A stretch of DNA of 64,000 bases from Pseudomonas putida (GTDB taxonomy: Bacteria; Pseudomonadota; Gammaproteobacteria; Pseudomonadales; Pseudomonadaceae). Position 1 is the first letter of the stretch, and each line of letters begins with the position of its first letter. The notes under the pieces are model-generated. The model did no database searches. It saw only the letters and a program-made list of their open reading frames with translations, and was not told where the DNA came from. The stretch covers positions 1,392,001 to 1,456,000 of the forward strand of contig CP163498.1 in the NCBI GenBank assembly GCA_041071465.1, in the 5' to 3' direction. The translations under genes were made by a program, and so were the position numbers. Below, one piece after another: positions 14,497-43,140 of this stretch.

Positions 14497-14505
14497 GATC
14501 AATCA

Positions 14506-14531: not shown

Positions 14532-14608
14532 GTGCCTGGAAGTCAGTGAAATCAAGGGCTTACTGCTCTTTTGAGGACCACAATGGTTTTTTGAGTTCCA
14601 GCCATCCC

Positions 14609-14658: not shown

Positions 14659-14682
14659 AAAAGGTGTCATGGAGCTTCTCCC

Positions 14683-19934: not shown

Positions 19935-20654
19935 TCACTCTTTCCAAACCTCAGCAGCCAACGGCAACTCATTCAACTCGGCGCGGGCCTCGCGCCAGGT
20001 TGGAAAATGCTCCCCGAGGATGGAGATAAAGCGCTCATTGTGGGTGGGTTCGAGCAGGTGAACCATTTCGTGAACGATCACGTACTCAAGCAGGTCTTTA
20101 GGCTTCTTCACCAACTCGGTGTTCAGTCTAATGTTCCCTGCTTGATGGTTACAGCTGCCCCATTTGGTTTTCATCCGCTGCAGGTAATAACCCACCACCT
20201 TCACCTTCAGCTTGCGCTCCCACTTCTCGATTAACAACGGCACCACGGCGTGCAGTTGCCGCTTCTGCCATTCATGGATCACTTCGGCGCGCTTATGTGC
20301 ATCACTGCCCGGGCGAACGGTTAAGGTGATGCGTTTGTGGTCAAGCACCACCGATGGCTTGGTGTCCAAGTGGTTAACCACCATCAGGTAGCGCCGACCC
20401 CAGACATAGTGGCTTTCTCTTTCCACAAACTGACGCGGCGCTTCACGCGCCTGCGCCTCCAGTTTGTTCTGCTGCTCGCGAATCCAGCCCAGCCTGGAAA
20501 TAGCATAAGCCCGGGCGACTTCAAGCCGAGTGCTTGTCGGGGCGACTAACGTTACCCGCCCATCGGGCGGGTGCACGCTCAGGTGAACATTCTTGATGTC
20601 TTTCCTGGTCACTGAAATTGAAATATCGCCTAGCTCAATAATCTCGTTCATCAA
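19935..20654 (-). CDS. YgjP-like M48-type metallohydrolase (DUF45/WLM)
   Basis: A 239-aa zinc metalloprotease-like protein with the active-site motif VHEMVHLLEPTHNERF (HExxH plus distal H/E) near residue 190 and the family block KTKWGSCN with N near residue 165. YgjP-type proteins are often linked to type I restriction loci; their substrate is uncertain (peptidase, or a nucleotide hydrolase in E. coli). The ATG overlaps the hsdR stop by 4 bp, so it is the last gene of the hsd operon. Confidence 0.85.
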   Translation of the reverse strand: MMNEIIELGDISISVTRKDIKNVHLSVHPPDGRVTLVAPTSTRLEVARAYAISRLGWIREQQNKLEAQAREAPRQFVERESHYVWGRRYLMVVNHLDTKPSVVLDHKRITLTVRPGSDAHKRAEVIHEWQKRQLHAVVPLLIEKWERKLKVKVVGYYLQRMKTKWGSCNHQAGNIRLNTELVKKPKDLLEYVIVHEMVHLLEPTHNERFISILGEHFPTWREARAELNELPLAAEVWKE

Positions 20655-23600: not shown

Positions 23601-23814
23601 GCAACGCTGCTGAAATTTGCGCATCGGAGTAGTCCCGCTGCTTCAGGTTTGCCTGCAACAGCTCGACTTCAATGTTGCGATTTTGCCCACGCTTGCTCCA
23701 CTCACCCAGGTAGTTGTAGCCAAGACAATCAGGCCGCGACTTGTCCGTAAACAAGGCCACAATGCGATTCTGGGTGCGACGTTCGGAGCGAGGTTGTTGA
23801 ATCATCAGGTGCAT
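20651..23814 (-). CDS. hsdR: Type I restriction endonuclease subunit R (HsdR), one apparent frameshift
   Basis: Motor and nuclease subunit of the type I R-M complex. Merged length is 1054 aa. N-terminal PD-(D/E)xK nuclease: D143 (RRPDLVIYL) and E157/K159 (GVIELKR). Helicase motifs: Walker A HTQGSGKS near 308-315, motif II DERH at 411-414, motif [11 protein letters not shown], motif [12 protein letters not shown]. The frame breaks at 22518-22520 (three G on the plus strand); adding one restores [19 protein letters not shown] across the two pieces (23814 to about 22515, then to 20651). The intact remainder argues for sequencing error. Confidence 0.92.
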
Positions 23815-23824
23815 CCTGCAGGGT

Positions 23825-25798
23825 TTACTCGGATTCGTGTTTGCTGACGAGACTGTTGAGCAACACGTTATTCATTTGTTCGGAATGGGCGCGTATGGCG
23901 TCGGCATCCCAAGATTCTATTTCCATCATCAGATACTGTTTAACGCTATCGATGGTGTTGTTTTTATAAAACTCTTTCTTGGCCGAAGGCATGAAATTGC
24001 TCAAGCGAGAGTTCTTGCTGTGGCTGATCAGGCACAGATTGCCGAACGAGTTAAGCGTGTCAGCATCCAGCTGAACTTGTCCGTCTAGCGGATGCTGCGG
24101 GTAGTAATGCTCAATCGAACTACGGAAGGTGAATTCATAGGATTTAACCGACTCCTTCGCCCTGTGTTCAAGCCAAAGCAAGTAGTCCAGAAAGTTGAAC
24201 ACCAGGTTGTTTTCGATGTTGCCGAACGTCAACCTAGACTCAATCGTCTCTGCCGCAATACTTTCGCGGCGCGTCTGACAGACGCCCCGGTTGGTATAAA
24301 TCATCGCAAAGTAATCAAGACCCGCCCCTTGAGCCAGAATACGGTCAAAGACAAACGCTTTTGCTACCGACTCCATGTGCTGCAGATAAGCCTGAGCCTC
24401 AATCTGTTCAACATAAAACAGGTGAAACAGCGCCGCATTCAACCAGTGCTTGTAAACCAGCGTTGGCGTAGAAACATGAAACGCTGACAGCAGCATCAGG
24501 ATGCGGCGGTTGATGCCCTCGTTGCCATCCTCCTCGCCGAAGGTATTCACATAACTCCCCCGCCCCGCCCGGCTACGTTCTCCGCCGTCATTCCATTTGA
24601 AGCGTTTGAGGCTCCAGCCATCTGCGCCCTTGATGAACTCACGCTTGATTACATACTGGTCAAACAGATACTTGCAGCGCAGCAGGCTAAAGGTAAAACG
24701 CTTCACCGCGGCTACAGGATCTGGCTGTTTGAGCACATAAGCTTCAAAGGTATCGAGCAGACGTTTGTCATCCAATGGGATGTCAGCTTTCGTATCGACA
24801 CGCAGTACATGCAACAAGAAGTTCGGGAAGTTTATAACCGTGTTGAAACGCTCTGGCGCATCCTCACTTGACTCATCCTGCTTCGCAGCAACCGGTGCCT
24901 TGGCAATGATCTGATCAAGGGTTAAGCGGGTTTCCTGCTTGGCGGCCTCCTCTTGCGAACTGTGCAGCGCAGCCCGCAGCGCATCAAAGTCAGCAAGCTC
25001 AAACTGTCCCCAGTCCTTGTCGCCAAAAATGCTGCCACGTTGGCCAGGCGTGAAGCCCATTTGCACATAGCGCTCCATGTTCGCGCAGGCTTCCCAAACG
25101 GCATGGAGGCAGTTCTGGCTCTGCTCGCAGCCCTGCAACTCCTTCATCATCCGCGCCTTGAGCACCTCGTGCTTTTCCAGCTGCTCACCGCGGTTATTCA
25201 TGATCTCGAAGTAATGGTTCAGCTCCGTATCCGCCGGAACCTTCACCCGCATGATTTGCACGTAGCGGAACAGGTAGTCGTAGAACTGCTGAAGCGAAAC
25301 GCTGTTCTCTTTCAGCTTTTGCGGCAAAAGTTTCTGGATGAGGCGGTAGCCATTGAGAATGCCAGTATTGATCTGTTTCTCAGCCAGCACCTCGGCAGGG
25401 TCGTCGTTGAATTTCCCCTCGAAAATGGCCGAAAAGGTGGCGCGCGAATGCTCACGGCTATCGAAGTGGATACTCAGGTTCGAGTACCAGGCAAGATCAA
25501 CCAACCGGGTGTTTTTCAAGTACGAAGTCAGTAGCGAGAGGGTCGTCAGCCGCTGTTGGCCGTCAATGGTTTCAAACACCGGTGTTTTGCTATCCGGGCG
25601 CTCATACACCACCAAGGTGCCAATGTAGTAATTGCGCTCTTTATCGTCCTTCTTCGGCAGGTAATCGATCACGTCCTGAATCAGCTGCGTGATTTCGCCC
25701 TCCTCCCAGGCGTAATTACGCTGGTACATCGGGATGACGTACTCATCCCGACCGCTGAGCAGCGCCTTGATGGATAGCTGACTGATTTCGCTACTCAT
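23825..25798 (-). CDS. DUF262-DUF1524 (GmrSD-like) protein
   Basis: A 657-aa protein with an N-terminal DUF262 (GmrS-like, ParB-fold) domain containing [14 protein letters not shown] and the NTPase-linked motif [12 protein letters not shown] near residue 79, and a C-terminal DUF1524 HNH-type domain with [12 protein letters not shown] and the downstream N in [12 protein letters not shown]. This is the fused GmrSD layout of type IV, modification-dependent restriction enzymes and SspE-like effectors. It is encoded inside an hsd operon, overlapping its DUF262 neighbour by 8 bp and 10 bp upstream of hsdR. All key residues appear present. Confidence 0.9.
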
Positions 25799-27199
25799 AA
25801 TATTTCATCGCCTTGAACAGAGCTTCGATCTCACCGGTTCTGGTTGACTTCTGGCCACTCAATACCGGCAGGGTGCAGCTAATAAAGTCAGCCGGACGTG
25901 TGGCGTCCTTGATCAACCGGAACAGATTGTTCTCCAGTACGTGGTTATCCATGCTGGCCAGCTGCACCACCTGCATCTTCAGGCGCAGGCTGTAGGCCCA
26001 GATAAAAATCTTCTCGATGGCACGGGAAATGCCCGCCTGACCGAACTTGTCGATATAGTAAATCAACAGGCAATCGAACATCGCCCGCACATAACAATCG
26101 CCGGTGCGGGTTCTTGCCGGATAGCTATTGAGCGTATCCATGATGGTTTTCGCATAGCCATCGAGCCCTTCAGCACCCACCAGTTCATGCCCGTTCCAGG
26201 ACTCGGCGCTGATCCGCGCCACTTTGCCCTGATAGTGGCTGATCAACTCAAAGAAGCGCCGGCCATTGATGATGATCTGATCCAGGTGGAAGGGAAAACC
26301 AAGCTCGCGCGAGTCGATCTTGCGCTCGTACTGCCCGTTGTAGTTATCGACAAAATGGTGGGCGATACGCAACTGCTCCACATAGGGGTAGCTGGTCACC
26401 GTGTCGATGTTTACGCCCTTGAATAAGTCACTGTCATCCTTGCTGAAGTAACGCGCCGAAACCCCTTTCGACCAATTGCGGATGCGGTACAGGTACTGCG
26501 AAAACAGCGTGGCTAACTCCTCGGTATCACTGCTTTCCCAGCGCGCCACCGTGGCCGCTTTAAACTGCTCGTCGCGCGGGCCGAACTCACGCAGATGGTA
26601 AGCCTTGAGCAGATCATGGGGCTCCAGATCCCGGCCCCGCGCATTCTGCGAGTCAAAGAACTGGAAGGCTTCCGACACATCGTTCAAAGCCACGGCCACG
26701 ACCTGGCACTTGTTCAGGAAGAAGTCTATATGCGCCTCGGTAAAGTCCGCACGGGAAACAATGCGGGCCACCTCAAGGTAATTGCTGTGGATGTTCTTCT
26801 GCGAGATTTCGCTGGTAAAACCGGGGTTCACCATCGCTTGCTCAAGCTCGAGCAGGCGTTCGCGCAAGTCTTTGCGTTCGAGCTTTTTTTCCTTGTTCCG
26901 CTGGATCAGCGCACGGACCGCCAGCAGCAGGCTGATGGTCCGCTGCTGGCCATCGACGATGTTCCTGGTCCCACCTTCGTGGTGAAATACGATAGTGCCC
27001 AGGCGGTAGGCGGACTTGTCCTTATGGATAGCGATATCGGAGAACAGTTGGCTGATGTTCTTGCCGGTCCACTTGTAGGGGCGCTGGTACTGGGGATATC
27101 CAGCGCAGAATCCATGAGCAGTTCGTAAACGCTGATGATATTGCTGGAGAGCTCAGTAGCCTGTAGCAGTTGAGGCGCATCCATGCTCAGGTTGGTCAT
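25791..27199 (-). CDS. DUF262 protein without HNH domain, one apparent frameshift
   Basis: Merged length 469 aa. It starts MTNLSMDAPQLLQAT; after repair the N-terminus reads LDIPQYQRPYKWTGKN and later VDGQQRTISLLL, the DUF262 motifs. The C-terminal half lacks an HxxP / N-S-N DUF1524 signature, so this is a GmrS-like subunit only. The break is at 27092-27095 (four G on the plus strand, five expected). The start ATG overlaps the hsdS stop by 4 bp. It may act as the partner or NTP-sensing subunit of the adjacent DUF262-DUF1524 protein. Confidence 0.82.
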
Positions 27200-28412
27200 A
27201 GCAGTCGGGTTCTTCCGGTTAACAGTTCTTGCATCATCCCCTGCTTAAGAGCTCGGGTCTTAACCAGACGCTGTTCCAGCGAGGTCAGCTCTGCGTCCAT
27301 ATCGGTCAGTACTGCGGCGATAGCGGTTTGCTCTTCGATGCGAGGGATTCGTATCGGTGCTTCCAGAAGCGCAGTATTTTCGAAGTTAACCTGACTTTCT
27401 GCCATGCCAGTTGTCCGCTGGTCCAAGTATGTCTGAGCGTCACGGGCGGAGATCGCGGTAGCCAACATCAGTGACTCAACTTTATTCGGACGGGTCGAAG
27501 TGCGATCATCTTGCCGGAAGGGATGATTCGCGGCGGCACATAATTAACCCAAGCGGCCACGCCGACCCGGTGCCGAGGTCCAGCCTTCGTGACGATAACA
27601 TCGCCCGTCCTGAGTTCGATCTGAGGCTTGTTCCAAAACACTCGCGGCAGCGTCTTATGCTTAGTCCAATCCCAGCCATTCTCTTTGGTTGCAGCAGTCG
27701 TTTTTAAAACGCCCCACTCGGACTCGTCTTGGATATTCCGCTCCTCGCAAGTTGGGCTCGGTCCGCAGAAAAAACCCGAGATCACATCCTGAACCTGCAC
27801 GAACTCCCACTCTCCATGGAAACCAGGGAGACGAATCTGGCCTGAGAGAAGTTGTTGCATGGCGGCCTGCTTAAGGTAGCGCTTCTTGGCAATAAGCAGC
27901 TCTAACGCACCCAGTAGCGCATCCACATCATTCAAAGTCGTAGCGATGGCCTGTTGTTCTTCCGGAGGAGGAACAGGGAGTCGATATTTTGAAATCTGCG
28001 GAGCGGTCAGCTGCGGTACGCCAGTGCTCTCATTTGCGAACTTGACGCTATTGTTAATGACTTGTGCGAAGTAAAAACCAGCCATCTCGCACTTTGGGTT
28101 TAGCACCAGAACTCGACCGATTGCGGTATAAGGATGGTCGCGGAAATTCGCTCTACCAACCATACCGCGAGCTGTAATCGTAATCGAGTTTGCCGGGTGG
28201 TCGGCATAGGAACAATAGCCGTATAGACCGCTGTTCGTCAGTGCATTTGAATAAATCGGATACGGATGGATGGAGTCTTGGAATGATTGAGAGCGCTTCG
28301 GGTCAAAATCGGCCCCTGCGGTAATATTGAACAATTCGCTGAAAGTAGAGACATCCCACTGTTCCGGAACTACGCCCACCTCCGTTTGTTTATAACCCGG
28401 CTTCACTGCCAT
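27196..28412 (-). CDS. hsdS: Type I restriction specificity subunit (HsdS), one apparent frameshift
   Basis: DNA-recognition subunit, 405 aa after merging. It has two target-recognition domains, each followed by a conserved helix: LPVPPPEEQQAIATTLNDVDALL (central; core EEQQAIATTLNDVD) and IRIPRIEEQTAIAAVLTDMDAEL (C-terminal; core EEQTAIAAVLTDMD). The frame breaks at 27485-27486; one extra T on the plus strand gives RNKVESLMLATA and joins the two pieces. The start overlaps hsdM by 10 bp. The two TRDs define a bipartite target that cannot be read from sequence. Confidence 0.9.
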
Positions 28413-30885
28413 ACCGCCCCCATCTTTTTCAGATGTTCTTCCACGCGACTGGCAAGCGTGGCGACTTCGTTTTCGAGCTGCGGTAACGGGGTGGCGTAGC
28501 GCTCACTCAGCTCACGAATACGTCCGGTCAGGGTTTGGGAGACGCGATCCAGTTCACCCTGTGCAGCTGCAGCCAGGGTGGCCAGCCACTTATCGTCAAC
28601 CACCAGGGTTTTGATTTCAGCCTCGCTAAGCTGCGGGTATTTAGTGTGGATTTTGCCGTCGAGGCTTTCTTCTACCGCTTTGAGTTTGGCCTTGAAGGTG
28701 CTTTGCTGGTCGAGCAAGATGGCATATTCGGTCAGGACCTTGAGTTCGTCCTCATAGTCAGGGTCTTTACCAATCTCGCGCTGGCGCGCCTTGATCGCTT
28801 TGGCGGTGACCTTTTGCCTATCGCCCTCGCCATCTATCACTTCGCTGAGCGAGCCATCTTCACCGCTATGCTCTTCAATCATTTCGCTCATGCTTTGCTC
28901 GACGCTTACCAGCTGGGTTTCGAGCTCCTCAATGGCGATGCGCTCAGCCGTAAAGTAGCGGGCAACCAGCAGCTCGACCGGAATCAGGTCGGACTTAAAG
29001 CGGCGCTTGCCTTGGCAGTAGTCATGCTTCTCGGCCCAAACCAGCTTGTTGGTCTTGTCCTTTACCTTCAGGATTTCACGCACTTTAGCGCCGGCCTTCC
29101 AGCCGTCGGCGCTGATCAGGTAGCAGTCATCCTGCATGCTCCCAGTCCAGTAATCCATGAGATGCTGGTAGATGTCGTAATAGTCGAGCAAGGGAGCTTT
29201 GGCGAAGGCGCTGAGCAGATCTTCAGACAGTATGGCGATCAACGTCTTGGGGTGGCTGCTGGCCTCATCGGCAGCAAAGCTTTTCAGTAGCGGGATGCTG
29301 CGGGCCAGCCACTGGTTGAACAGCGTATCCACACCCGCCTTGAAGGCGGTGAACTGCGGGTGAGCGAAGATAACCGGCTTCACCTCGCGACTGGCGAGCT
29401 CAAAGTAACCGAGGTGGCTGGCCGGCTTGAACAGGGCCGCGCGCAGGGCAGGCATGACCTGCCAGTAGCTATCGAACGCATCGATATCACGCTCGGGAAT
29501 GCCACCGCGCAAATGGCCGTCGATATCCTGAATGTCCTCAGGCTCGCTACTGTCGATATAGCGGGGCAGGTTGAGGCTGAAGTTGTTCTTCGGATCACTG
29601 ATTTCGTCGAAGGAAACCATACGCGCGTAACGCGGCACATCGGCCATTCGGGTAAAGGTATCGACGATCTTGTGCACATCCTGATCGCGCAGGCGATTCT
29701 TCGGGCCGTCCTTGATAAAGCCCTTGGCGGCATCGATCATAAAAATGCCTTTGCGGGCGCTTGCGTTTTCCTTGTCCAATACCAGAATGCTGGCGGGAAT
29801 ACCAGTGCCGTAAAACAGGTTGGCCGGCAGACCGATAATGGCCTTCAGGTAACCAGAGCGCACCAGTTGCTCACGGATCACCGCCTCGGCATTACCCCGA
29901 AACAGCACGCCGTGGGGCAAAATGCAGGCACCTTTGCCGGTGCCCTTCAACGAGCGGATGATGTGTAGCAGAAAGGCGTAATCACCCTGTTTTGCCGGTG
30001 GCTCGCCCAGGCAAAGCGCTGATAGGGATCTTTGGCTGGCGTCAGGCCGACGCTCCAAGACTTGACCGAGAACGGAGGGTTAGCCACTACGTAGTCATAG
30101 GTACGCAACTGTTCGCCGTCCTTGAACTTGGGCGTGGACAGCGTGTTGCCCTGCTGAATGTTGGCAGTCGGAAAGTCATGCAAGATCATGTTCATGCGGG
30201 CGAGACCGGCGGTGGTCACGTCCATCTCCTGACCTTCCAAGGTGATCTGCTTGCCCGCCTGGTCAGCCACTTTTAGCAAGAGCGAGCCTGAGCCGCAGGT
30301 GGGGTCATACACAGTCGTGGCGCCCACTGCATTGGTCGGACTGATGCCAATGACCTTGGCAATGATGCGACTGACCTCGGACGGGGTGTAGAACTGGCCC
30401 TTGCTTTTGCCGCTCAGGCTTGCGAAGTGGCACATCAGGTATTCGTAGGCGTCGCCGAGAATGTCATCGTTTTCGGCGCGATTTTTCGAGAAATCCAGCT
30501 CGGGTTTTTCGAAGATGGCCACCAAGTTGGTAAGACGTTGCACCATCGCATCGCCTTCGCCCAGCTTGTTTGGGTCGTTGAAGTCGGGGAAGTCACTGCG
30601 CGCAAGCCGGGTGTTGGCATCGATCAACGGCTGGATGATCTGCGTGTTGATCTTGTCGCCGATATCGGACTTGCCCTTGAGGGCGATCATGTCTTTAAAG
30701 CTGGCTCCCGGCGGGATGGTCACCGGCGGAGCGAAGTCATCCGAGTTCCCGTACTTGTCGGAGATGTACTTGATAAACAGCATGAACAGGACGTAGTCCT
30801 TGTACTGGCTGGCATCCATCCCACCGCGCAGCTCATCGCACGAGGCCCAGAGGGAGGAGTAAAGATCGGATTTCTTGATAGCCAT
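28403..30885 (-). CDS. hsdM: Type I DNA methyltransferase subunit (HsdM), one apparent frameshift
   Basis: N6-adenine methyltransferase subunit, 827 aa merged. HsdM N-terminal helical domain (MAIKKSDLYSSLWASCDELR), SAM motif I DPTCGSG at 194-200, catalytic motif IV ANPPF at 268-272 and a long C-terminal coiled-coil region used for subunit contacts (about 650-827). Break at 30006-30008 (three C on the plus strand; four restore FAWGEPPAKQGDYAF). The length exceeds minimal HsdM (about 520) because of the C-terminal extension. First gene of the six-gene operon. Confidence 0.93.
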
Positions 30886-31339
30886 TGGCAACCCTGACTG
30901 AGGTAACGAGTAAGTGCGCAGGCGCCCCCTGTTACGCGCTCGGGAAAATGCCCATGGCGCCAACATTAGTCGGGGGTCGACAGATATTTGTAGCGAAGCG
31001 GTGCTTTACCTGCGGTTAATGGGTGAACCTTATCTACTTCGGCTTCGTCTGGCCAGCATTTCGCCCTTGATTCTGGTCTTCATCCACGGCCACAGTTCAA
31101 TCACCCGGAAGGTCGCAGACCGTGGCCGGCGGACTTGGATGCCGCGAACAGTAAGCCGCTGAGCTTTCGGCGCCAATACTGGACGTGTGCACAGGTAAGT
31201 AATCCGCTCACATACCGATAGCACTACGCCGCTAGGCAAACACCACTTCGCTGATTTTTGATAATTTGCAAAGCTGAAGATGAACTTACCTGTACTCATA
31301 GTTTACATATCGCCCAGCACTGGTTTTCCGCAGGCGGGC
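30886..31339. other. 454-bp intergenic segment upstream of hsdM
   Basis: It should contain the hsd operon promoter. A 90-codon minus-strand frame at 31030-31299 lacks any recognisable family or good RBS and was not called. I see no repeat or strong hairpin. Confidence 0.5.
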
Positions 31340-31633: not shown

Positions 31634-32046
31634 TCATGAACGCGCGAGTACGTATCACCAACGGATCGCTTGTCACCTCCCCCAGCAACTGGTTGTCCAG
31701 ATGGCGCAGGAAGCCGTAATAGCGCTCCACCTCCCCAAGGCCGCCACGCAGTGTCTGCGCATGCTTGTGGATGAAGTAGAGAAATGGCGTGAGCCAATAA
31801 TGAGTGGTAGAGCATGCCCTGCAGCAACGACAAACCCTGATGCTGAGCGGCATCACGTCTACGGTTGATGTAACGCTTGTCATCACTGGCAGAAATCGAG
31901 GTATGGTAGATCTGGTGGATCTCGTCATCACCCTGATCTACCCACTTGATCACATATTCATCCCACAGCACACGCATACGCCAGAGCAGGTCAATAAAGC
32001 CTTCGGCCCTCGCTGCACGCTGCATGCTGCTCTGGCTCCGCCGCCT

Positions 32047-32612
32047 CGCGCGCCGCATATCGAGGGGCTGGCATTGGCCTATGCCCATACGCGGGTGCTG
32101 GAGGTGCCAGACCGCTTGATCAATGCCGAGATTCTGAGACCCTTGCTGAAAGCCTGCCGCGAACACCTACGGTTGGAAGTCGAATACGTTTCGTTGGCCA
32201 ACCCTGAGCCTGAAGTCAGGCTGATCGCGCCTCATACGCTTATTTACACCGGCATGCGCTGGCACGTGCGCGCGTTCTGCGAGGAGAACCAGGCGTACCG
32301 CGATTTCGTGCTGAGTCGCCTGCGCGGTGTACCGGAGTTCATGGATGACGTGACCGAAACGGTATCGACGGAGATGACGAATGGAACACCGAGGTACCCG
32401 TGCTGATCGTGCCGGATGAGCGGCTAACCCCTGCGCAGAAGGCAATTATCGAGACCGATTTCGGGATGGTGGGCGGAGAGCTCGAAATCTCCAGCCGTCA
32501 AGCCCAGGTAAAGTATGTGCTACAGCGCTATCAGATCGACCCGAAGAAACTAGACCCCAAGCCTGAGGCGCAGCAGATTTTGGTTGAGAATCTAAGGGGA
32601 TTGAAAAGCTAA
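32047..32612 (+). pseudogene. WYL-domain regulator, C-terminal remnant
   Basis: It begins abruptly at APHIEGLALAYAH and continues as the WYL domain (IYTGMRWHVRAFCEE) and WCX tail (KYVLQRYQIDPKKLD), clearly homologous to the fuller WYL gene at 42179-43053. The winged-helix N-terminus is missing. It also has a one-base break near 32372 (GAGATGAC where GAGGATGAC keeps the frame into EVPVLIVPDERL). Non-functional as a DNA-binding regulator. Confidence 0.85.
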
Positions 32613-34260: not shown

Positions 34261-34470
34261 ATGCCTATCCCTCCTAGCCCCATGACCTTCCACTGCGATC
34301 AATGCAACTGGAGCATGACCGTGGCCCCAGCCAGTGACGCGCTGGGCCCAGGAGACTGGCATCACAGCTGCCCTAAGTGTGGCAACCCCAACCTGCAAGT
34401 TGCTCGGGCCGGTGCCCTTGCCGGCCTGCTGGCCAAAGCCGCCCGGCATCTGCACATCCGCAAGCATTAA
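34261..34470 (+). CDS. Small zinc-ribbon protein
   Basis: A 69-aa protein with two Cys pairs, CDQC (residues 12-15) and CPKC (about 38-41), spaced as in zinc ribbons, followed by a short hydrophobic/basic helix (GALAGLLAKAARHLHIRKH). First gene of the GTPase operon, 57 bp before the next. Function unknown; a nucleic-acid or protein adaptor is plausible. Confidence 0.65.
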   Translation: MPIPPSPMTFHCDQCNWSMTVAPASDALGPGDWHHSCPKCGNPNLQVARAGALAGLLAKAARHLHIRKH

Positions 34471-34527
34471 GCGCCTTGCACTAGCCCTGTTGTTGCGAAC
34501 ACGCCCGGCACTTAAAGGATTATCACC

Positions 34528-34761
34528 ATGCTCGAAAGCCAAAAAGCCTTCGCCACTTACCTGAAGAAAATGCAGGGGCTGCACGAAGGCCAGATGGTCA
34601 CTTTCGACCAAACCTTGCTGCCTAAAGTCATGACGACCGAACGGATGGTGCCGGTAATCGCTGCAGTCATTCCCCGTTCCCACCCAAGCCGTTCGCTTTC
34701 AGCAAAAGACCATAGCAGTGCCCCTTCCCGCCCAACAAAAGTCAAACAGCAAAGTTACTAG
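34528..34761 (+). CDS. Small protein of unknown function
   Basis: A 77-aa protein beginning MLESQKAFATYLKKMQGL, with a polar, Ser/Lys/Arg-rich tail from residue 50 on. AAGGATTATCACC precedes the ATG. No recognised domain. It lies 84 bp upstream of the first GTPase in the same direction. Confidence 0.5.
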   Translation: MLESQKAFATYLKKMQGLHEGQMVTFDQTLLPKVMTTERMVPVIAAVIPRSHPSRSLSAKDHSSAPSRPTKVKQQSY

Positions 34762-34845
34762 CCATATGACATCATGCCGGCACCCGGAGCCTTGCAGTGG
34801 GCTGATGCACTGCAGCAACAGTGATGCGACAGGAGACGCTGACTG

Positions 34846-35715
34846 ATGGACCGAACCAAACGACTTGAGGCGCTGGAGGCGGAGTACCAGCTGTTTGCCA
34901 GCCAGCGCGACGAGGCTTCCCCGGCCAAGCCCCGCATTGCCGCCTGGGGCCTGGTCAAAGCAGGGAAAAGCTCCCTGCTCAATATGCTCAGCGGCCATGC
35001 CAGCGACGAGCATTTCCAAACGGGTGATGTGCGTACCACCCGTACCAACCAGGCACTGGAACTAGACCACTACGTGCTAGTGGACACCCCAGGCTTGGGC
35101 TATGACCAGGACGACACTCTGCAAGCGAACCAGGGCCTTGATGCCGCTGATGTCGTGCTGTTCGTCCATGCCCCACCTGGTGAGCTTGACCAGGAAGAAG
35201 TGGCCCTGCTCGATCAGTTGCGCAGCGCCTATGGCCAAGACGTGGGTGAACGCGTGGTGTTGGTGATCAGCCAGCTGGACAAGCTGCAAGACGCCGACCT
35301 CGCCGCAGTCAAGGACACCATCGAACGTCAGGCCCTGATCCATCTAGGCACGGCGCCTGAATGCTTTGTCATTTCCAACACGCGTTTCAAAAGCGGTGTA
35401 GAGAAAAACAAGCAAGGGCTCTGCGAAAAAAGCGGCATTCCACAGCTGGCGCAACACCTGCAATCGCTTTCGAAGCGCCTCGCCAAGTCGCTCGCTGACG
35501 CCCGGCAACAGCGCCTGGCACGGCGCGCCTTGGAGCTGGGCACGCGTATCGACGCATTGATTGAACAGGACCTCAAGCTGATCGAGCAGATCACCGAGCC
35601 GTATGTGGTCAAGGCCAAAGCCTTCGTCGAGCACATCGACAGCGCTCGCCGGACCTTCAAGACCCATACGTCCGACATGCAGAAAGCACGCACCAAACTC
35701 GACAGCCTCAAGTAA
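34846..35715 (+). CDS. Dynamin-like/Era-type P-loop GTPase 1
   Basis: A 289-aa GTPase. G1 GLVKAGKSS at 35-43, G3 DTPG at 80-83, and a divergent G4 candidate SQLD at 142-145 (canonical NKxD replaced). The C-terminal 90 residues (from about 195) are helical and charged, rich in Arg/Lys/Glu, a short stalk-like region. The small size suits an accessory GTPase. 11 bp before the membrane coiled-coil gene. Confidence 0.82.
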   Translation: MDRTKRLEALEAEYQLFASQRDEASPAKPRIAAWGLVKAGKSSLLNMLSGHASDEHFQTGDVRTTRTNQALELDHYVLVDTPGLGYDQDDTLQANQGLDAADVVLFVHAPPGELDQEEVALLDQLRSAYGQDVGERVVLVISQLDKLQDADLAAVKDTIERQALIHLGTAPECFVISNTRFKSGVEKNKQGLCEKSGIPQLAQHLQSLSKRLAKSLADARQQRLARRALELGTRIDALIEQDLKLIEQITEPYVVKAKAFVEHIDSARRTFKTHTSDMQKARTKLDSLK

Positions 35716-35726
35716 GGAGACTTGCA

Positions 35727-36320
35727 ATGCCTCTACCTTGGTTGATCGGCGTTGCGGCAGTCGCTGCTGCCGCCGCCATTGCTAAAGCGGTCAGTGACGA
35801 CACCCCTTCGTCTTCAAGCACCACCACCCACTACGACGATAGCGAGCGGCTTGAGCAGGAGCGGGAAGCCAAGCGCCTGCGCGAGCAAGAAAACCTCAAA
35901 GCCCGCGTCCAGTCTCTGGCCGGCGAGCGGCGGGAACAGCTCAAGGCCCAGCTCAGAGGGGCGGCATCGACACTGGCCGCCTCGCTGGACAAGCACAACC
36001 CGGTCTCTGAAGGCGTAACCAAGATGACGCGCTTGACGCTCGAAGGGGTGACGGGGGATCAGCTTGAACAACGTATCCGCAGCACCGCGTCGTCGACGTC
36101 CAATTACGGTAAGACGGTCAAAGCTATTCTCCAAGCGTCGCCCACTATGGAAGGTGGGCACATCGTTCATTTCATGCAGGGCGTGAACCTGCTCGAATCC
36201 GTGACCGCGCCTGCCGAAGCATCTGCCTCCGACCAGGCGGCGCTCGCCCAAGCGCAAGTCGCCCAGGCACGTATCGAGCGCCTGCAGCAACTGAAACGTC
36301 AACTTCTGCTTAAGGCGTGA
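35727..36320 (+). CDS. Membrane-anchored coiled-coil protein
   Basis: A 197-aa protein with an N-terminal hydrophobic helix (PLPWLIGVAAVAAAAAIAKA, residues 2-21), a Ser/Thr linker and a long charged coiled coil (SERLEQEREAKRLREQENLK onwards). It resembles no family I can name. Placed between two GTPase genes with gaps of 11 and 7 bp, it may tether the GTPases to the inner membrane. Confidence 0.65.
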   Translation: MPLPWLIGVAAVAAAAAIAKAVSDDTPSSSSTTTHYDDSERLEQEREAKRLREQENLKARVQSLAGERREQLKAQLRGAASTLAASLDKHNPVSEGVTKMTRLTLEGVTGDQLEQRIRSTASSTSNYGKTVKAILQASPTMEGGHIVHFMQGVNLLESVTAPAEASASDQAALAQAQVAQARIERLQQLKRQLLLKA

Positions 36321-36327
36321 TAGATCG

Positions 36328-38091
36328 ATGAGCACCGTTACTCGTGATGAATTGATGCAGGTCTTTCAACAACTGCAGGGGCAATTCTCCAGCCAGAAGC
36401 AAAACCTCGCGCAAGCTCAGCAACGCTTCGACACGCTGCGCACCGGTTTTGTAAAGCACTTGCGTCAGCAGACCGAAAGCATGGCCAGCGCGGTCAGTGA
36501 CAACAATCCGCTCAAGGAAGGTGCGACCCAGATGGCGCAGCGCCTGACTGACCAATTCATGGTCTGGGAAGAGCGCGCCGAGGTGCGTGCGAAGGGCGCG
36601 GTCTTTCGTGAGAACTTCAACGACTCCTTACTGGTGTTCGTGTACGGCAAGGTCAAATCAGGCAAAAGCTCGCTGGGCAACTACGTGGCTTGGGGGCACA
36701 GTGAACCCACTGCGCAACTGAAAGCCCAGGCCACGCTGAAACCCACTTACTTTTCTCATGACCGAACCGACGTCGCCAGTGGCGACAAAGAAGGCGAGGC
36801 ATGCAGCTCCAAGCAATTCAGGGTCGGTGCCACTGAGGCCACCAGTTCGATTCAAGGATTCAAGCTGCCTGGGTTCACCTGGGTCGACTCGCCTGGGCTG
36901 CATTCCACCAATGCGGCCAATGGCAACTTGGCGCGCAAGTATGTCGACCAGGCGGACCTGATTCTCTACACCATGAACTCGCAAGCGCCTGGCCGCCAGT
37001 CGGACATGAGCGAGGTCAGGAGCCTGCTCGATGGCAAACGCTCGTTGATGATTCTGCTGACCGGCAGCGATATCACCGAAGAAGACGAAGACGATGATGG
37101 GCAACTCGTCACCGAAGTATTGATGAAATCCAAGGAAACCCAGCAGCGGCAAATCCAGGAAGTCACCGGCAACCTGGTGGAGATGCAGAAGGACGCTGCC
37201 AGCCATGTCCGCATCCTGCCCATCTCGACCCGCTTCGCCGAGCGCCACCCCTCGCACTTGCAGGAAAGTGGCCTGGGCACCCTGTTCCAAACCCTCAAGA
37301 CGCTGTCGCAAGGTGAAGGTCTCAACCTCAAGCTGACCACCCCCTTGAACAACCTGCGCAAGGCCGTGGCTGAAACCTGCGACGACCTGAGCTTGATCAA
37401 GGAACTGACCGAGACGTTCGAGCTGCAGATCCAGAAGCAGGAGCAGGCAGTGGAGCGCGAGCTGCGGACCCTGAGCCAGAAGGGCGTCACGGAAATGCGC
37501 AGTTTCGTCAACCAGCTCTACAACGGGCCACGCCCCGGCGACGCACAGCCTCAGCTGCGCGAGCGCCTGGCCACCCTGCTGGGCCGCCTGACCGGCGAGG
37601 CCATGAAGGGTATCGGCGAAAGCCAGCAAAATGCGCTGCAACGTGCCTTCGATACCAGCCGCATCGGCGCCATTCCGGCGTACCGCGAGGTCACGGTCGA
37701 GAAGGAATACATCAGCGGCACTCGCAGCAGCACCAAAACCGCTTGGGGAGCGGGCGGGGCGGTTGTCGGTGGTGTCATTGGCTTCTTCGTCGGCGGCCCC
37801 GCAGGCGCCGCAGCCGGGGCTTCGCTGGGCAGTGCCGCGAGCATGATTGGTCGCAGCGCCGAGGCCATCCGCGCCAAACACAATGTGGTGGTCGGCGACA
37901 ACCTGGAAGAACAACGCCAGGCAGCTCTCGAGCAGTACGCCGACGCCCTGCCTGCCTACCTCAACGAGCAGGTACGTGGCATCTACGATCCCCTACGGGA
38001 CTCCATGCTCGAATACTGCCAAATCCTGACCATCGAAATGGAGCGCCTGCGTCAGGCGCTCATAACCCTTGAAACGAGCACCGCGCAATGA
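36328..38091 (+). CDS. Dynamin-like GTPase 2 with glycine-zipper membrane segment
   Basis: A 587-aa protein: N-terminal helical region (1-95), GTPase domain with G1 GKVKSGKSS at 107-115, G3 DSPG at 187-190 and G4-like TGSD at 245-248, a long helical middle (about 300-460), then a Gly/Ala-rich hydrophobic segment at about 471-508 (GGAVVGGVIGFFVGGPAGAA) typical of membrane insertion, and a helical end. The layout is that of bacterial dynamin-like proteins. The stop overlaps the start of GTPase 3 (ATGA). Confidence 0.82.
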   Translation: MSTVTRDELMQVFQQLQGQFSSQKQNLAQAQQRFDTLRTGFVKHLRQQTESMASAVSDNNPLKEGATQMAQRLTDQFMVWEERAEVRAKGAVFRENFNDSLLVFVYGKVKSGKSSLGNYVAWGHSEPTAQLKAQATLKPTYFSHDRTDVASGDKEGEACSSKQFRVGATEATSSIQGFKLPGFTWVDSPGLHSTNAANGNLARKYVDQADLILYTMNSQAPGRQSDMSEVRSLLDGKRSLMILLTGSDITEEDEDDDGQLVTEVLMKSKETQQRQIQEVTGNLVEMQKDAASHVRILPISTRFAERHPSHLQESGLGTLFQTLKTLSQGEGLNLKLTTPLNNLRKAVAETCDDLSLIKELTETFELQIQKQEQAVERELRTLSQKGVTEMRSFVNQLYNGPRPGDAQPQLRERLATLLGRLTGEAMKGIGESQQNALQRAFDTSRIGAIPAYREVTVEKEYISGTRSSTKTAWGAGGAVVGGVIGFFVGGPAGAAAGASLGSAASMIGRSAEAIRAKHNVVVGDNLEEQRQAALEQYADALPAYLNEQVRGIYDPLRDSMLEYCQILTIEMERLRQALITLETSTAQ

Positions 38092-39721
38092 CTCAACCAG
38101 GCCCGATGACCCAACTGCTAGCCCTCTACGACGAAGTGGATGGTCTGTGTGAAACCTACAACCCGCACACTGTCGCCAGCATTCGCGAACTGAGCCGGGC
38201 GAAGAAGGCGCAAGCGGGTGCGAGCATCATGGTGTACGGCGTCTATAACGCCGGTAAAAGCACGCTGATCAACGCCTTGCTTGGCAAAGAGTTGGCTGCG
38301 GTAGCCGATGTGCCGGAGACCGCCCGTGTGCAGGGCTATCGCTGGGGGACTTCGAAGTGCTCGATACACCCGGCATCGACGCGCCGCTAGAGCACGAGGC
38401 CATCACGCGCGAACAGCTGGTGCAGTCGGATGTGGTGATCTTCGTGGTCAACCCGCTGGGTGTGGTCGAGGAGGAAAAAACCCTCGATGTGCTGCTGGAA
38501 CTGGTGCTTGCCGGCAAGATGATCTTTCTGGTGCTCAACTGCAAAAGCCGCTTCGACCCGATCGACCTGGCCCGCATCAAGGACGAACTCAGCGAGCGCA
38601 TTCAACAAAAGGCCGGCTCCCAGAAGGTGCTGGGGCATATCCCGATCGTCGAGGTTAACGCCCGCTCCGCGCTCAAGGCGAAACTGGAGAACAAGCAGAA
38701 CCTGCTGAACAGCTCGGGCTTTCCAAAGTTTGAACGCGATCTGGAAGGGTTCTTCGCATCCGTGGAGCAGAAGGCAATCGTGGCGCGTGTCGCTAACGAA
38801 CTGCGCAGCTTCCTCGATGCAACGGTAGCCGAGCTGGACAAACGCCAGGACCAAGCTGCGATCAAACGCCTGGACGCCTTCTATGGCGAGATCGCGCGCC
38901 GCGAAATCGATATTCGCCATGGTTTGAAATCGCTGATCGAAGCCAAGGCCGCCTACATTGCCAAGAGCACGATCACAGCGCTTAACCAAAACATCGAAGG
39001 CGCTCAAGGCAAGGTCGAGCAGCTTATCGGGCAGGCCAACGAACAAGTCTGCAGCGAGCTCGAAGACGCACTCACCCGCCTGGGCCTGGACGCCTCCGAG
39101 ATGCTCGACGAGGTCATTCGAGAGGTACAGGTACAACCACAGGCTTACAACGCTCAGGCTGCACCCGACCTCGATACAGCGCAGGCCCCCGCCAACCAGT
39201 TGCCCGCATCGCAGGGCGTCGACTTGAGCCTGCTCGAATCCGGTGTCCGTCAGGCCAGCAGCATGCTCAAGGCCGAGCATGTCGTCAGCGCGCTGAAAGT
39301 CGGCAAACAGTGGCTGCCGACACTGTTCAAAGGGGTCGGGCCGGTCACCATGGGCAAGGTTGCCGAACAGATCGTCGGTAAGGTCATCCCCGTCATCGGT
39401 ATTGCTTTCCAGGTAGGCAGTGCGCTGTATTCCGCCTTTGCCGGCGACCCTGAGCAGCAGCGACTGGAAGAACAAGCCAAACGCGAGGAGCAGGAGCGCG
39501 AGCGCCGCGAACAGGCAATCCAAGCATTCGCCGACGAAACGGCCTGGGAATTCTCGCGGTCGCTGAACGCCATGGTCGATAGTCACCTGAAGACCAACTT
39601 TGCCGATATCAAGGACAAACTGCAGAGCCTGCGTGGCAGCCTTGGCCAGGACCAGCGCCGTCTCAGCGAGGACCGTGAACGGTTGGTCCAGGCCCAGGCC
39701 GCGATGGGTGAGTATGCCTGA
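38088..39721 (+). CDS. Dynamin-like GTPase 3, one apparent frameshift
   Basis: Merged length 544 aa. G1 GVYNAGKST at 51-59; after repair G3 reads DFEVLDTPGID near residue 93; G4-like NCKSRFD. It is followed by coiled-coil helices, a hydrophobic segment (VIGIAFQVGSALYSAFAG) near residue 440 and a final coiled coil. The frame breaks in a G5 run at 38344-38348; six G join the pieces. ATGA overlap with GTPase 2 and 8-bp overlap with the next gene mean translational coupling. Confidence 0.82.
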
Positions 39722-40043
39722 TACCCCCACGCCCTTTGCCTGCAGCCGCTGCATGGAATGCTGCCGACGTGTGCACTTGCTTGCTGAAACCGCGGTGATG
39801 GACCGCGGCGACGGTGTATGCCGGCACCTGGATGAAGCCAACGCCGGGTGCCGCATCTACGACCAGCGGCCGGACGCCTGTCGCATCGATAGGCAGTACG
39901 AACTGCATTATCGCCAGGCAATGAGTTGGGAAACGTACGTCAAGAAGAACGAAGCCGGGTGCAAGCAATTGCAGGCGCTCGGCGCTGGCGAGGCCACCCG
40001 GGTAATCCTGGCTTCTACAGACAACCGCTTTACACAACCATAG
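39714..40043 (+). CDS. YkgJ-family CxxCxxCC metal-binding protein
   Basis: A 109-aa protein with CSRCMECCRR at about residue 10-19 and later C(RHLDEANAG)C plus RPDACRIDRQYE, the eight-Cys pattern of the YkgJ zinc/iron-chelating family (PF03692 type). No characterised activity in most members. It starts inside the last codons of GTPase 3 (8-bp overlap), so it is part of the operon; no other start has a better position. Confidence 0.82.
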   Translation: MPDTPTPFACSRCMECCRRVHLLAETAVMDRGDGVCRHLDEANAGCRIYDQRPDACRIDRQYELHYRQAMSWETYVKKNEAGCKQLQALGAGEATRVILASTDNRFTQP

Positions 40044-40053
40044 GGACTTCAGA

Positions 40054-40792
40054 ATGGGTATCAGCTACCGCGCGGATGATGACCTGGCCTTCCTGCAATA
40101 CTGCCGGGAAGACGACATCCGCAACCTGGCGGCCTATCTCATGTTCGACAAGGACGGAGAAAAGCGCAGAGCAAGCGAAATCGCCGATGAGCCGCAATTC
40201 AAGAAACTGCAGGGCCAGCCAGATCAATGGCGTCGCTGCTGGCAACTGGTTGCCGGTGAGTTGCAGCATTTCGCGGGTGACTCCATCGTCAACCTGTTCC
40301 GCCGTCAGGGTGTGCTCTACAAGGAAATGCTCTGCGACGTCTGCGACAAGACCGATGTGAAGTACGACAGCAAAGCCAGCGCCTACGCCATCGAAAACCA
40401 GCTCATCGAAAAACTGGTAGAAAAGAGCTGGGAACAAATGTCGCCGGAACAGCGGCGTAGCACAGCCGAGGAAATGAACCTCAATGGCGCGCTCGGCGCG
40501 CTGCCGCTGGCCGCGATCATCAATGCCATTCGTGCAGGTGGTCTGGGTTCGCTGCAGTGGTCATCGTGGCTTGCAAGGGGTACCACTGCGTCATTCAGCA
40601 ATGCGATCGGGGTGACCCTCGGCGGTGCTGCAGCGCTGGTAGGCGGGCGCGCGGTAGCGGCCATCGCCGGGCCTTTGGCAGCGATCGCTGTGACCGTTCC
40701 TCTGCTCAGCGGTACGGCCTATCGGGTCACGATCCCGGCAGTCATTCAAATCGCGTTCATGCGGCGCCAGTATGAAAAGAGGATCACTTCTA
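40054..40792 (+). CDS. YaaW-like protein (DUF3944 / UPF0174)
   Basis: Resembles E. coli YaaW: DDLAFLQYCREDDIRNLAAYL (DUF3944 start), WQLVAGELQHFAGDSIVNLFR, and the C-terminal GTAYRVTIPAVIQIAFMRRQYEK. The middle is hydrophobic and glycine-rich (about 170-230), suggesting membrane association. As sequenced, the frame runs to 40899 through 35 unrelated residues. Adding one G at 40781-40782 ends it at TAA in TAATG, where the next gene starts, giving about 246 aa, close to YaaW (237). Function unknown. Confidence 0.8.
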
Positions 40793-41689
40793 ATGCAGGC
40801 AGCAGCAGAACTTCTGAGCAAAATCTGGGTACTCGACGAGGCGGCCTTTTCGAAGCCCCTCCTGGATGCGCTGGCGGCAGGCAAGGCAGTCATCCATGAC
40901 GGCGTGGCGTATTACGCGGCGGGCAGTGGCAAGACGGGCGTCATCCAGCACCTGCCGTTCAAAGAAGCCGTGTTCAAGTCCGCCGAAGAAGCACTCAAGG
41001 CCGCGCAGATGACTACCGTCATGGCCACCGCCGCGTCCACCTGCGTGATTCTCGGGGCGCTGATCATCCAGACCAAGTACCTGGCGGCAAAACTCGACAA
41101 GATTCAGAACACGGTCGACGAAATCGCCAAAGAGCTGCATACCCAGAACATCGTCTATTACATGGACAAGGTCACCGACTACATCGGCAGTATCGAAGTC
41201 GCCCGCACCTTGCTCAAAGACCGCAGCCTGGCAAGCGAAATCAAGGATGTGGCTTACCCCTTGCTGGCATCAGCTGCAGCCAAGCGTAACCATGCGATGT
41301 CGTTCATCGACAACGTCCTGGCATTGGCGCAAAACAGCAGCGAGGTAAGCAGTAAGCACTACGAGCTGGTGGTCAACTTCGCCCACATGATGCTGGAGAT
41401 CATGCCGCTGGGCATTCACACGGAATATTTGCTGGCCGCCCGTGTAGGCAAGCCGATGCTCGCCCAGCAGATACTGGAAGATGGCGCAGAGCGGTATCAG
41501 GGTGCAATGCAACAGTACAAGGGGTTCCTCAATGCCCAACATCGCGAGTTGGTGCGGGGAAACATGGGCGACAAGACCGTAGTCCTGCAGCGCATCGAAG
41601 ATAGGGCACGGCAACTGATTCAGTCGACAGAAAATCAACTATTGCTCACGTTGCCCAATGGCCGTATGGCAGTGCTCGAAGCTGCGTAA
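40793..41689 (+). CDS. Membrane protein of unknown function, last gene of the GTPase operon
   Basis: A 298-aa protein: N-terminal soluble segment with an atypical AAGSGKTGV (a P-loop-like string, but no supporting motifs), one transmembrane helix (about 73-92, TTVMATAASTCVILGALII), then a long helical domain. Start ATG at 40793 chosen because it would overlap the repaired YaaW stop (TAATG); an upstream ATG at 40772 is possible. No family recognised. Confidence 0.65.
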   Translation: MQAAAELLSKIWVLDEAAFSKPLLDALAAGKAVIHDGVAYYAAGSGKTGVIQHLPFKEAVFKSAEEALKAAQMTTVMATAASTCVILGALIIQTKYLAAKLDKIQNTVDEIAKELHTQNIVYYMDKVTDYIGSIEVARTLLKDRSLASEIKDVAYPLLASAAAKRNHAMSFIDNVLALAQNSSEVSSKHYELVVNFAHMMLEIMPLGIHTEYLLAARVGKPMLAQQILEDGAERYQGAMQQYKGFLNAQHRELVRGNMGDKTVVLQRIEDRARQLIQSTENQLLLTLPNGRMAVLEAA

Positions 41690-41798
41690 GTTCACTGGCC
41701 AGCACCGTTGATAAGGGGCTCGAACATGAGCCCCATGCCCGGCCAGTTCAAGCATGGCTCGCCTGAGCAGCCTCCAATCCGTTCAGTTTTGCCCATAC

Positions 41799-42059
41799 TC
41801 AACGCTCATTCGCATGGGTCATGCCCTGCAAGATTTCCACCTTGCGCCGCAACTGCCCCACATGTTCCCGCTCCGCCCGCAACGCCGCCCTCAGCTCGCG
41901 GTTCTCCATTTCCCAAATCTGCAACCAGCGCAAATCCTTCTGGCAGTGCTCCACCTTCTTGCCCAGCTCGCCCAGCCTCAACCCCTGCTGAATCAGCACC
42001 AGCAAGATGATCCCCATCGCCACCAAGGCACCCGTCGCAACCACTTCCGGCATCGTCAT
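41799..42059 (-). CDS. Small membrane-anchored coiled-coil protein
   Basis: An 86-aa protein: an N-terminal transmembrane helix (ATGALVAMGIILLVLIQQGL) then a coiled coil (RELRAALRAEREHVGQLRRK). AAAGGAC lies 7 nt before the chosen ATG (42057-42059) but only 1 nt before an ATG at 42065. It is on the opposite strand between the GTPase operon and the WYL gene, divergent from the latter. Function unknown. Confidence 0.65.
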   Translation of the reverse strand: MTMPEVVATGALVAMGIILLVLIQQGLRLGELGKKVEHCQKDLRWLQIWEMENRELRAALRAEREHVGQLRRKVEILQGMTHANER

Positions 42060-42127
42060 GCTCATGTCCTTTGCTACCTTCGGAGCGTTCCGAAGACGAA
42101 CCAAAGATATGTAATGCATAACTACAC

Positions 42128-42169
42128 GTCTAGAATGTAGACTTATACAGGTAAAGTAATCGCGCACAT
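42128..42169 (+). promoter_or_regulatory. Predicted operator upstream of WYL regulator
   Basis: Inverted repeat GTCTA-GAATG-TAGAC (42128-42142) followed by ACAGGTAAA...GCACAT (42147-42169), which matches 34104-34126 upstream of the GTPase operon at 18/23 bases; both also contain GTCTAGA just before. A shared binding site for the WYL protein, giving autoregulation, is the simplest reading. Confidence 0.55.
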
Positions 42170-42178
42170 GGAGAGGGT

Positions 42179-43053
42179 ATGAAACGCAAGCAATCCATCG
42201 AGCAGGTACGCTGGGACCTGGCACTTCGCTATCGTTTGATCGAAACCGTTGCCTGGTGGGAAGGCCGGCTGACCACGGGCCACCTGATGCAGAGCTTTGG
42301 CATCAGCCGCCAGCAGGCGTCGAAGGACATCAATACCTACATCACCGAACATGCGCCCGAAAACTTGACGTATGACAAGCAGATCAAGGGCTATGTACCG
42401 AGCGAGCAGTTCGAGCCGCTGTTCATCGATAACAGCGCCAGCGCCTATCTGCACCTGCTCTACCAGAACAACGAACGGGCGCCGCACATCGACGGGTTGG
42501 CACTGGCCTACGCGCACCCCGTGTACTGGAGGTGCCTGACCGCCCTATTCGGCCAGAGGTGCTGCGCCCATTGCTCAAGGCTTGCCGTGAAGGCCTGCGC
42601 CTGGAAACCGAATACGTATCCTTCAACACCCCCAACGTCGAGGTGCGCCTGATCGCCCCGCACACGCTGGTGTACACCGGCATGCGCTGGCACGTGCGGG
42701 CCTACTGCGAAAAGAACGGCCAGTACCGCGACTTCGTCCTCAGCCGCCTGCGTGGGCAGCCAGGCTTGCTCGACGCGTCGCCGAACACGCGTGAGCAGGA
42801 TGAAGACTGGAATGTCGAGGTGCCGGTCATCTTCGCGCCTGATGGGCGGTTGAACACGGCGCAGCAGGCAATCATCGAAACCGACTTCGGCATGACCGAT
42901 GGCCAATTGGTGGTGCCTAGCCGCAGGGCATTGGTGAAGTATGTGTTGCAGCGGTATCAAATCGACCACCGCAACATGGCGATACTGCCCGAGGCCCAGC
43001 AACTGGTGGTGAGCAACCTCCAGGAACTGCAACCGTGGTTGATGAAGTACTGA
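42179..43053 (+). CDS. WYL-domain transcriptional regulator (BrxR/CapW type), one apparent frameshift
   Basis: Merged length 291 aa: N-terminal winged helix (LMQSFGISRQQASKDINTYI), WYL domain (VYTGMRWHVRAYCEK) and C-terminal WCX (KYVLQRYQIDHRNMA). This is the layout of BrxR/CapW repressors that control BREX, CBASS and other defence operons. The frame breaks near 42521-42524; adding one base (for example G) gives LEVPDRPIRPEVLRPLLKAC, as in the paralogous remnant at 32047. GGAGAGGGT precedes the ATG. Confidence 0.85.
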
Positions 43054-43095
43054 CGCAGGGCGCTTGCTCTAGCTGCAACGCGTCATGTGTTGTTC

Positions 43096-43140
43096 TGTGG
43101 GAGCGGGCTTGCCCGCGAACACGGGCGAAGCCCGTGCCAG
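43096..43140. repeat. REP element
   Basis: ctgtgggagcgggcttgccc, gcgaac, and the imperfect stem acgggcgaagcccgt, between the convergent WYL gene and the TonB receptor gene. Confidence 0.82.

Follow-up and report, generated by a model that had tools for sequence, protein, structure and literature searches.

The question raised by this locus is whether nine co-directional genes, at 34261-41689 of the window, form one undescribed defence system, as the initial annotation had it, or several parts that merely lie in one row. The window is the whole 64,000-nucleotide stretch analysed here; its genome is a single contig of 6.32 Mb with its kin in Pseudomonas, and its nearest named contig is from P. 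hunanensis (L002, 99% identity over 8.4 kb), which we treat as the same species. The open reading frames (ORFs) are indeed all co-directional with gaps of 84 bp or less, and of the four overlaps noted earlier two stem from single-base deletions. We reject a single nine-gene system because the full set of nine is found in none of 12 relatives and L002 lacks the first two genes; the conserved unit comprises four or five genes. The row consists of two modules and two loosely linked genes, and the modules most likely belong to one transcription unit. The first (34846-40043) is, judging from sequence, most likely an undescribed dynamin/GTPase core of three GTPases (G1, G2 and G3) and a membrane-anchored coil protein, joined in near relatives by a YkgJ-type protein. 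The second (40054-41689) is the known jumbo-phage-killer (Juk) pair JukA-JukB, set in a variable slot after YkgJ. The core is probably anti-phage, and we favour, at a probability of roughly 55%, the explanation that it represents an undescribed dynamin defence system similar to Eleos (the LeoA-LeoBC defence system) and is sometimes docked to Juk.

The modularity is evident from the 12 relatives, which are loci found in a scan of genome contigs with G2 and compared with the window proteins by tblastn. G1-G2-G3 are present in this order in all 12, the coil protein and YkgJ in 11 each, and JukA-JukB in two (L002, L003). The slot behind YkgJ holds JukAB in 2/12 relatives, a fourth GTPase in 5/12 and neither in 5/12. 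In one of the last group, L005, the core is immediately preceded by a fusion of an alpha/beta hydrolase with a JukA-like domain (6889-8343; PADLOC 2.8e-8, DUF726 6.1e-12). The fourth GTPase (G4, 372-379 aa) occupies the JukAB slot in L008-L012, and its L008 copy has a DUF697-like tail. G4-like GTPases also stand directly ahead of distant G1-G2-G3 rows in L016 (4823-12511) and L020 (299-7193), each showing five consecutive GTPase matches; thymidylate-kinase-like and radical SAM genes follow the GTPase array in L016, and ORFs of similar size occupy this place in L020.

Linkage in varied genomic sites, which the initial annotation had proposed as a check, is found for G1-G2-G3 across sites and taxa. 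In particular, a locus from another genus of the family (L030) carries G1-coil-G2-G3-YkgJ-JukA-JukB, with 48% (G1), 58% (JukA) and 75% (JukB) identity to the window proteins, a coil protein that aligns only partly, and G2, G3 and YkgJ that are 54%, 56% and 61% identical to those of L009. L017-L019 and L031 possess the four-gene core, with no match to YkgJ. Among plasmids, G2 matched 37 records, 29 of them from Klebsiella, Raoultella and Citrobacter (with G2s at least 99% identical to one another) and eight below 60%, and G3 matched 29 records from the same three genera. The whole core, preceded by TrlF and S-4TM genes, was seen in the one Klebsiella plasmid inspected; a near search for this version in E. 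coli gave none. In a Photobacterium plasmid (L025, 346-11235) the four-gene core is interleaved with csm6, cas1, cas2 and a RAMP gene, and two AIG1-like GTPases lie upstream. Two-gene GTPase-dynamin pairs on Acinetobacter and Diaphorobacter plasmids were excluded as a different arrangement. Counting the window's own genome each time, the core occurs in 13/398 Pseudomonas genomes, 7/398 of a family draw and 2/398 of a phylum-wide draw, and a class-wide draw of 369 genomes yielded it only in the own genome; these draws overlap, and alignments and cut-offs differ between them. This patchy distribution makes a housekeeping role unlikely. A phage-borne origin was likewise rejected, as the core had no match in annotated phages and none was confirmed in viral contigs.

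The three P-loop GTPases of the initial annotation are borne out by the alignments, with P-loops at residues 35-43 (G1), 107-115 (G2) and 51-59 (G3) and a DTPG/DSPG motif that is invariant in 11, 13 and 11 sequences, respectively. P-loop, switch Thr and DxPG are invariant columns in all three alignments, and the 11 G1 sequences that share P-loop and DTPG include those of the Klebsiella and Photobacterium plasmids. G1 matches LeoA in PADLOC (1.9e-21) and, in Pfam, MMR_HSR1 best (9.4e-11) and Dynamin_N next (1.7e-6). G2 matches Dynamin_N (7.5e-11) and, across residues 164-578, LeoA (6e-19); a protein search scored 7999 candidates, of which 561 are homologues at E<=1e-10, and against solved structures (PDB) its profile gave chance-like matches only and the single sequence E 0.09 or worse. 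The second, longer piece of G3, which is split in this assembly, matches LeoBC (9.1e-24) and the first piece LeoA (2.1e-9). A profile of intact G3 relatives finds Cj-DLP1 (2.5e-14), BDLP1 (1.7e-6) and LeoA (6.8e-5). G1, G2 and the first piece of G3 all score above the gathering threshold of Dynamin_N. Hydrophobicity peaks in a glycine-rich segment near residue 478 of G2 and at residue 429 of G3.

The remaining genes of the row are conserved to different degrees. The hydrophobic N-terminal stretch of the coil protein agrees with the membrane anchor ascribed to it earlier, and its position and general layout are kept in Pseudomonas, the other genus (L030), Klebsiella and Photobacterium. L009, L018 and L019 have a shortened Ser run or none, Photobacterium shows only a low hydrophobic peak, and L013 gave no tblastn match. 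The YkgJ-type protein (Pfam PF03692, 9e-7) directly follows G3 in 11/12 relatives, the exception being L007, and was unmatched in the distant loci L016-L020, L024-L026 and L031. The families named in the initial annotation (zinc ribbon, three P-loop GTPases, CxxCxxCC and YaaW/DUF3944 proteins) were all recovered, the zinc ribbon by sub-threshold Pfam matches only, and the inclusion of the first two genes in the unit did not hold. In 6/12 relatives (L008-L013; weakly in L013, 5e-4) G1 is immediately preceded by a zinc-ribbon homologue; L003, L005 and L006 have one at another place in the stretch, and L002, L004 and L007 gave no tblastn match. The zinc ribbon is loosely linked and probably not a core component. 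The 77-aa ORF, without a match in Pfam, PADLOC or NCBIfam and by tblastn in 0/12 relatives, is probably not a component either, and homology to L002 begins only inside it, at 34682-34721. The features are compiled in Table 1.

Table 1. Features of the gene row and its immediate surroundings in the window.
Feature	Position	Strand	Basis and remarks
Small zinc-ribbon protein, 69 aa	34261..34470	+	Sub-threshold Pfam matches only; loosely linked
77-aa ORF, no family	34528..34761	+	Not conserved
G1, small dynamin-related GTPase, 289 aa, core	34846..35715	+	PADLOC LeoA; Pfam MMR_HSR1, Dynamin_N
Coil protein, 197 aa, core	35727..36320	+	Hydrophobic segment at the N-terminus, linker rich in Ser, charged helix
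G2, dynamin-like GTPase, 587 aa, core	36328..38091	+	Pfam Dynamin_N; PADLOC LeoA
G3, dynamin-like GTPase, about 543 aa in relatives, core	38088..39721	+	Split here (38088-38390 and 38357-39721); PADLOC LeoBC/LeoA
YkgJ-type CxxCxxCC protein, 109 aa, companion of core in near relatives	39714..40043	+	Pfam PF03692
JukA, sensor of the Juk anti-jumbo-phage system	40054..40899	+	PADLOC; last ~40 codons out of frame relative to relatives
JukB, effector of Juk, 298 aa as in L002	40793..41689	+	PADLOC; mechanical ORF start 40772
Hairpin directly behind JukB	41715..41734	+	No T run; absent from terminator-like sites
WYL-type regulator beside the operon, two ORFs in the assembly	42179..43053	+	PADLOC WYL 4.8e-16 (second piece); context, not component

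The last two genes are identified by their sequences as the known Juk system, with JukA and JukB adjacent and co-directional. JukA matches its PADLOC model at 2.7e-94 (5e-95 for the intact 246-aa copy of L002) and falls into the YaaW/DUF3944 family (Pfam PF13099, 1e-9); JukB matches at 1.5e-127, and its L002 copy matches the solved JukB 9jht at 2.6e-36. The initial annotation had listed a YaaW-like and a one-helix membrane protein, and its YaaW family assignment holds, but the pair is the already described JukA and JukB. When infection begins, nucleus-forming phages shelter their DNA inside a membrane vesicle, a site at which only a few defences, Juk among them, are reported to act (PMC13282480, PMC12931631): JukA senses and JukB forms pores at this early-infection vesicle, and JukA works with diverse effectors (PMC13282480). 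The window row resembles this system in its terminal pair and differs in being longer, with the dynamin/GTPase core ahead of the pair, while the excerpted account of Juk in the review mentions neither dynamin nor GTPase (PMC13282480).

The position of the Juk pair suggests that it is docked to the core. A core with adjacent JukAB is found in the window species, L003, L015 and L030. In L003, JukAB has the YkgJ stop on one side and a GGGGCTC/GAGCCCC hairpin on the other; this hairpin directly follows YkgJ in L004, a near relative without JukAB, and stands behind JukB in the window. The G3 tree requires two or more changes of the JukAB label, and the G4 loci form one clade on it. In two Pseudomonas draws of 398 genomes with coinciding handles, the JukA model matched 102 genomes, the core 13 and both nine, which amounts to 9/13 against 93/385 genomes (Fisher p=0.001, uncorrected for phylogeny). 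Core and JukA are adjacent in genomes G000, G289, G057 and G008, so that JukA lies within 10 kb of four of the 13 cores compared to 0.03 expected under random placement. The count falls to three without the same-species genome G289, and one of these, G057, has JukA beside a shortened core. With an assumed 50-fold island effect p becomes 0.06-0.18, and island clustering may account for the adjacency count taken alone.

Several observations weigh against the favoured explanation, some concerning the docking and others the nature and context of the core. No JukA-type gene was found in 9/12 core loci (some ORFs of which were unscanned with JukA models), and JukAB occurs without the core in L033, L034 and L044. 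L004 is nested among JukAB-bearing loci on the G3 tree yet lacks JukAB, and in the JukA and JukB trees the core-linked copies do not form one clade, at weak support. In L015 (genome G057), YkgJ-JukA-JukB lies behind G3, and solely the C-terminal part of G2 is matched; with no match to G1, the coil protein and N-terminal G2, JukAB here follows a shortened core. As to the GTPases, G1 matched solely Der/EngA-type GTPases in the PDB search and is nearest to this type by PDB and Pfam scores, Der/EngA proteins rank above or among the dynamins for the G3 profile and score higher than BDLP1 and LeoA, which weakens the dynamin label, and G3 lacks in its alignment the Asp of the (N/T)KxD motif. The dynamin affinity claimed by the initial annotation is upheld by the LeoA/LeoBC matches of all three proteins and by the G3 profile, and qualified by the Der/EngA matches. 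By these models the dynamin label appears firm for G2 and G3 and weaker for G1, because the best Pfam match of the latter is the general MMR_HSR1 and all its PDB matches are of the Der/EngA type. The anticipated enrichment near defence genes, finally, is a trend only: 11/30 flank ORFs (five WYL) had PADLOC matches against 3/20 control ORFs (p=0.087). The 30 flank ORFs were hand-picked large ones; the count left out the window's own flanks and flank proteins scanned earlier, among them a MkoA-like nuclease-helicase and a HEC-06-like GmrSD protein. One control region contained a Dpd gene, and two control matches are RtcR-like activators.

It is conceivable, albeit unlikely, that the core and JukAB form one integrated anti-jumbo-phage machine, in which JukA senses the vesicle and the dynamins are further Juk effectors that remodel it. 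A JukA-type gene is tied to the core in two forms, as JukAB downstream and as the hydrolase-JukA fusion upstream (L005), and this, together with the repeated change of the JukAB label and the published versatility of JukA towards effectors (PMC13282480), speaks for such a machine. The nine core loci in which no JukA-type gene was found and the GTPase-free account of Juk in the excerpted review speak against it, and the docking may be recombinational.

The genomic setting bears on a further explanation. In the window a tmRNA gene followed by an integrase ORF that matches CP4-type and related integrases lies at 14095-15939. Homology to L002 breaks just after the tmRNA and resumes at ~34.7 kb, with one piece of 78% identity in between, at 33.0-33.9 kb; therefore two strains of one species have different cargo between ssrA and the operon, and the defence island appears to be ssrA-linked. 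A tmRNA occurs in 6/24 core stretches scanned (L002, L004, L006, L010, L012 and L021, some of which share a genome; L007 was left out) and in 0/6 control stretches, and the JukAB-only loci L033 and L034 are without it. Shared islands could thus unite the modules, and the core might have an envelope-maintenance or vesicle-release role, of the kind originally suggested for LeoABC, and ride in accessory islands, with JukAB as a functionally independent neighbour in the same operon slot. LeoABC has been reported to affect vesicle release (PMC4159319), and both modules exist apart from each other, no JukA-type gene having been found in 9/12 core loci. We nevertheless regard this explanation as somewhat unlikely: the patchy distribution and plasmid carriage of the core are unlike housekeeping, JukAB of L003 lies ahead of the shared hairpin and not merely nearby, and L033 and L034 have JukAB in the absence of a tmRNA.

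The defence island beside the gene row and the regulator bounding the row, both noted in the initial annotation, are present in the form of a type I restriction locus nearby and the adjoining WYL regulator. In the restriction locus (20651-30966) hsdR is split, hsdM apparently so, and one gene is GmrSD-like (PADLOC Orf5/HEC-06); a second WYL-type regulator (31804-32612) is apparently split into two frames, too. Elsewhere, a full-length Zorya ZorA lies upstream of the operon in L003 (1190-3394), a CARF-nuclease lies beside L031, and type III CRISPR genes surround L025.

The initial annotation treated G3 as one ORF; here it is read in two frames that result from a one-base difference. It is a single open frame of 536-546 aa in the 12 relatives from the genome-contig scan, and 119/120 of the homologues listed have 538-545 aa, the remaining 454-aa entry apparently being this genome's own. 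Likewise, the JukA/JukB overlap of the window is shaped by a one-base difference, and JukB of L002 starts at the JukA stop codon. An alignment of window positions 34721-43104 with L002 contains four indels, each a single base missing from the window, and three of these fall within genes (G3, JukA and the downstream WYL regulator). Three frame-broken genes could indicate that the operon of this strain is a decayed, non-functional copy, an interpretation that we consider improbable. All four indels lie in or next to short base runs, L002 is intact, and hsdR is split as well (hsdM apparently, from the ORF list), which makes assembly error likelier than decay; the breaks in G3, JukA and the WYL regulator, like those in the type I restriction locus, are probably of this kind.

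Among known dynamin systems, the core appears to resemble LeoA-LeoBC in its adjacent dynamin genes and in the remote PADLOC matches of G2 to LeoA and of G3 to LeoBC over most of their length. It differs in the third GTPase G1, the anchored coil protein and YkgJ, and G2 scores 36 bits against the 325-bit cut-off of the curated NCBIfam model LeoA/HP0731 (NF041922). LeoABC consists of two dynamins, one of them split (PMC4159319). Most bacterial dynamins are encoded as operon pairs and are thought to act as heteromers; tandem genes also characterise Cj-DLP1/2 (PMC6104087), to which G3 profile residues 87-295 align (Cj-DLP1), and the window dynamins have other partners. Bacillus DynA is a dynamin-like protein that delays phage lysis and acts against phage at the membrane (PMC8844932), as the core may also do; DynA is one fused protein (PMC6104087), in contrast to the multi-gene row of the window. 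The E. coli YjdA (CrfC)-YjcZ pair is more remote, the CrfC family model NF007368 giving 13 bits against 1146, for the first G3 piece only. A review states that Ophion strongly co-occurs with Juk (PMC13282480), and a paper on Pseudomonas islands mentions 'Dynamins' in a hotspot (PMC12629846). A search of the PMC literature for YaaW/YkgJ, dynamin and phage gave no description of the core operon; the gene content of Ophion was uncompared, and the core could be Ophion. Within that scope, the claim of the initial annotation that no such system had been described stands for the core and fails for the last two genes, which are Juk.

If the core is a dynamin defence system as favoured here, G2 and G3 would assemble into a heterotypic pair like LeoA/LeoBC or Cj-DLP1/2, which inserts into the membrane by the glycine-rich segment of G2 and the hydrophobic helices of G3. 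The coil protein would anchor this complex at the inner membrane, with assembly possibly under the control of G1. Upon phage attack the complex would cluster at the attacked membrane and remodel or seal it. With JukAB docked, JukA would bring JukB to the early-infection vesicle of the phage, and the dynamins might act on the same membrane site; of this scheme, the action of JukA and JukB at the vesicle is the published part (PMC13282480). A bolder and rather unlikely version is that of a transferable dynamin machine, of three to five GTPases with its own anchor, that is guided by JukA to the jumbo-phage vesicle, where the dynamins would constrict or break it or fuse it with the inner membrane.

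If true, this would be a bacterial analogue of the interferon-induced GTPases that attack pathogen vacuoles. The occurrence of a putative membrane-remodelling GTPase core repeatedly beside Juk, and also alone, including on plasmids of Enterobacteriaceae, raises the question whether bacteria attack phage vesicles with dynamins. Even without a link to Juk, the G1-coil-G2-G3 arrangement would go beyond the dynamin pairs known from bacteria, as a set of three GTPases that has an anchor of its own.

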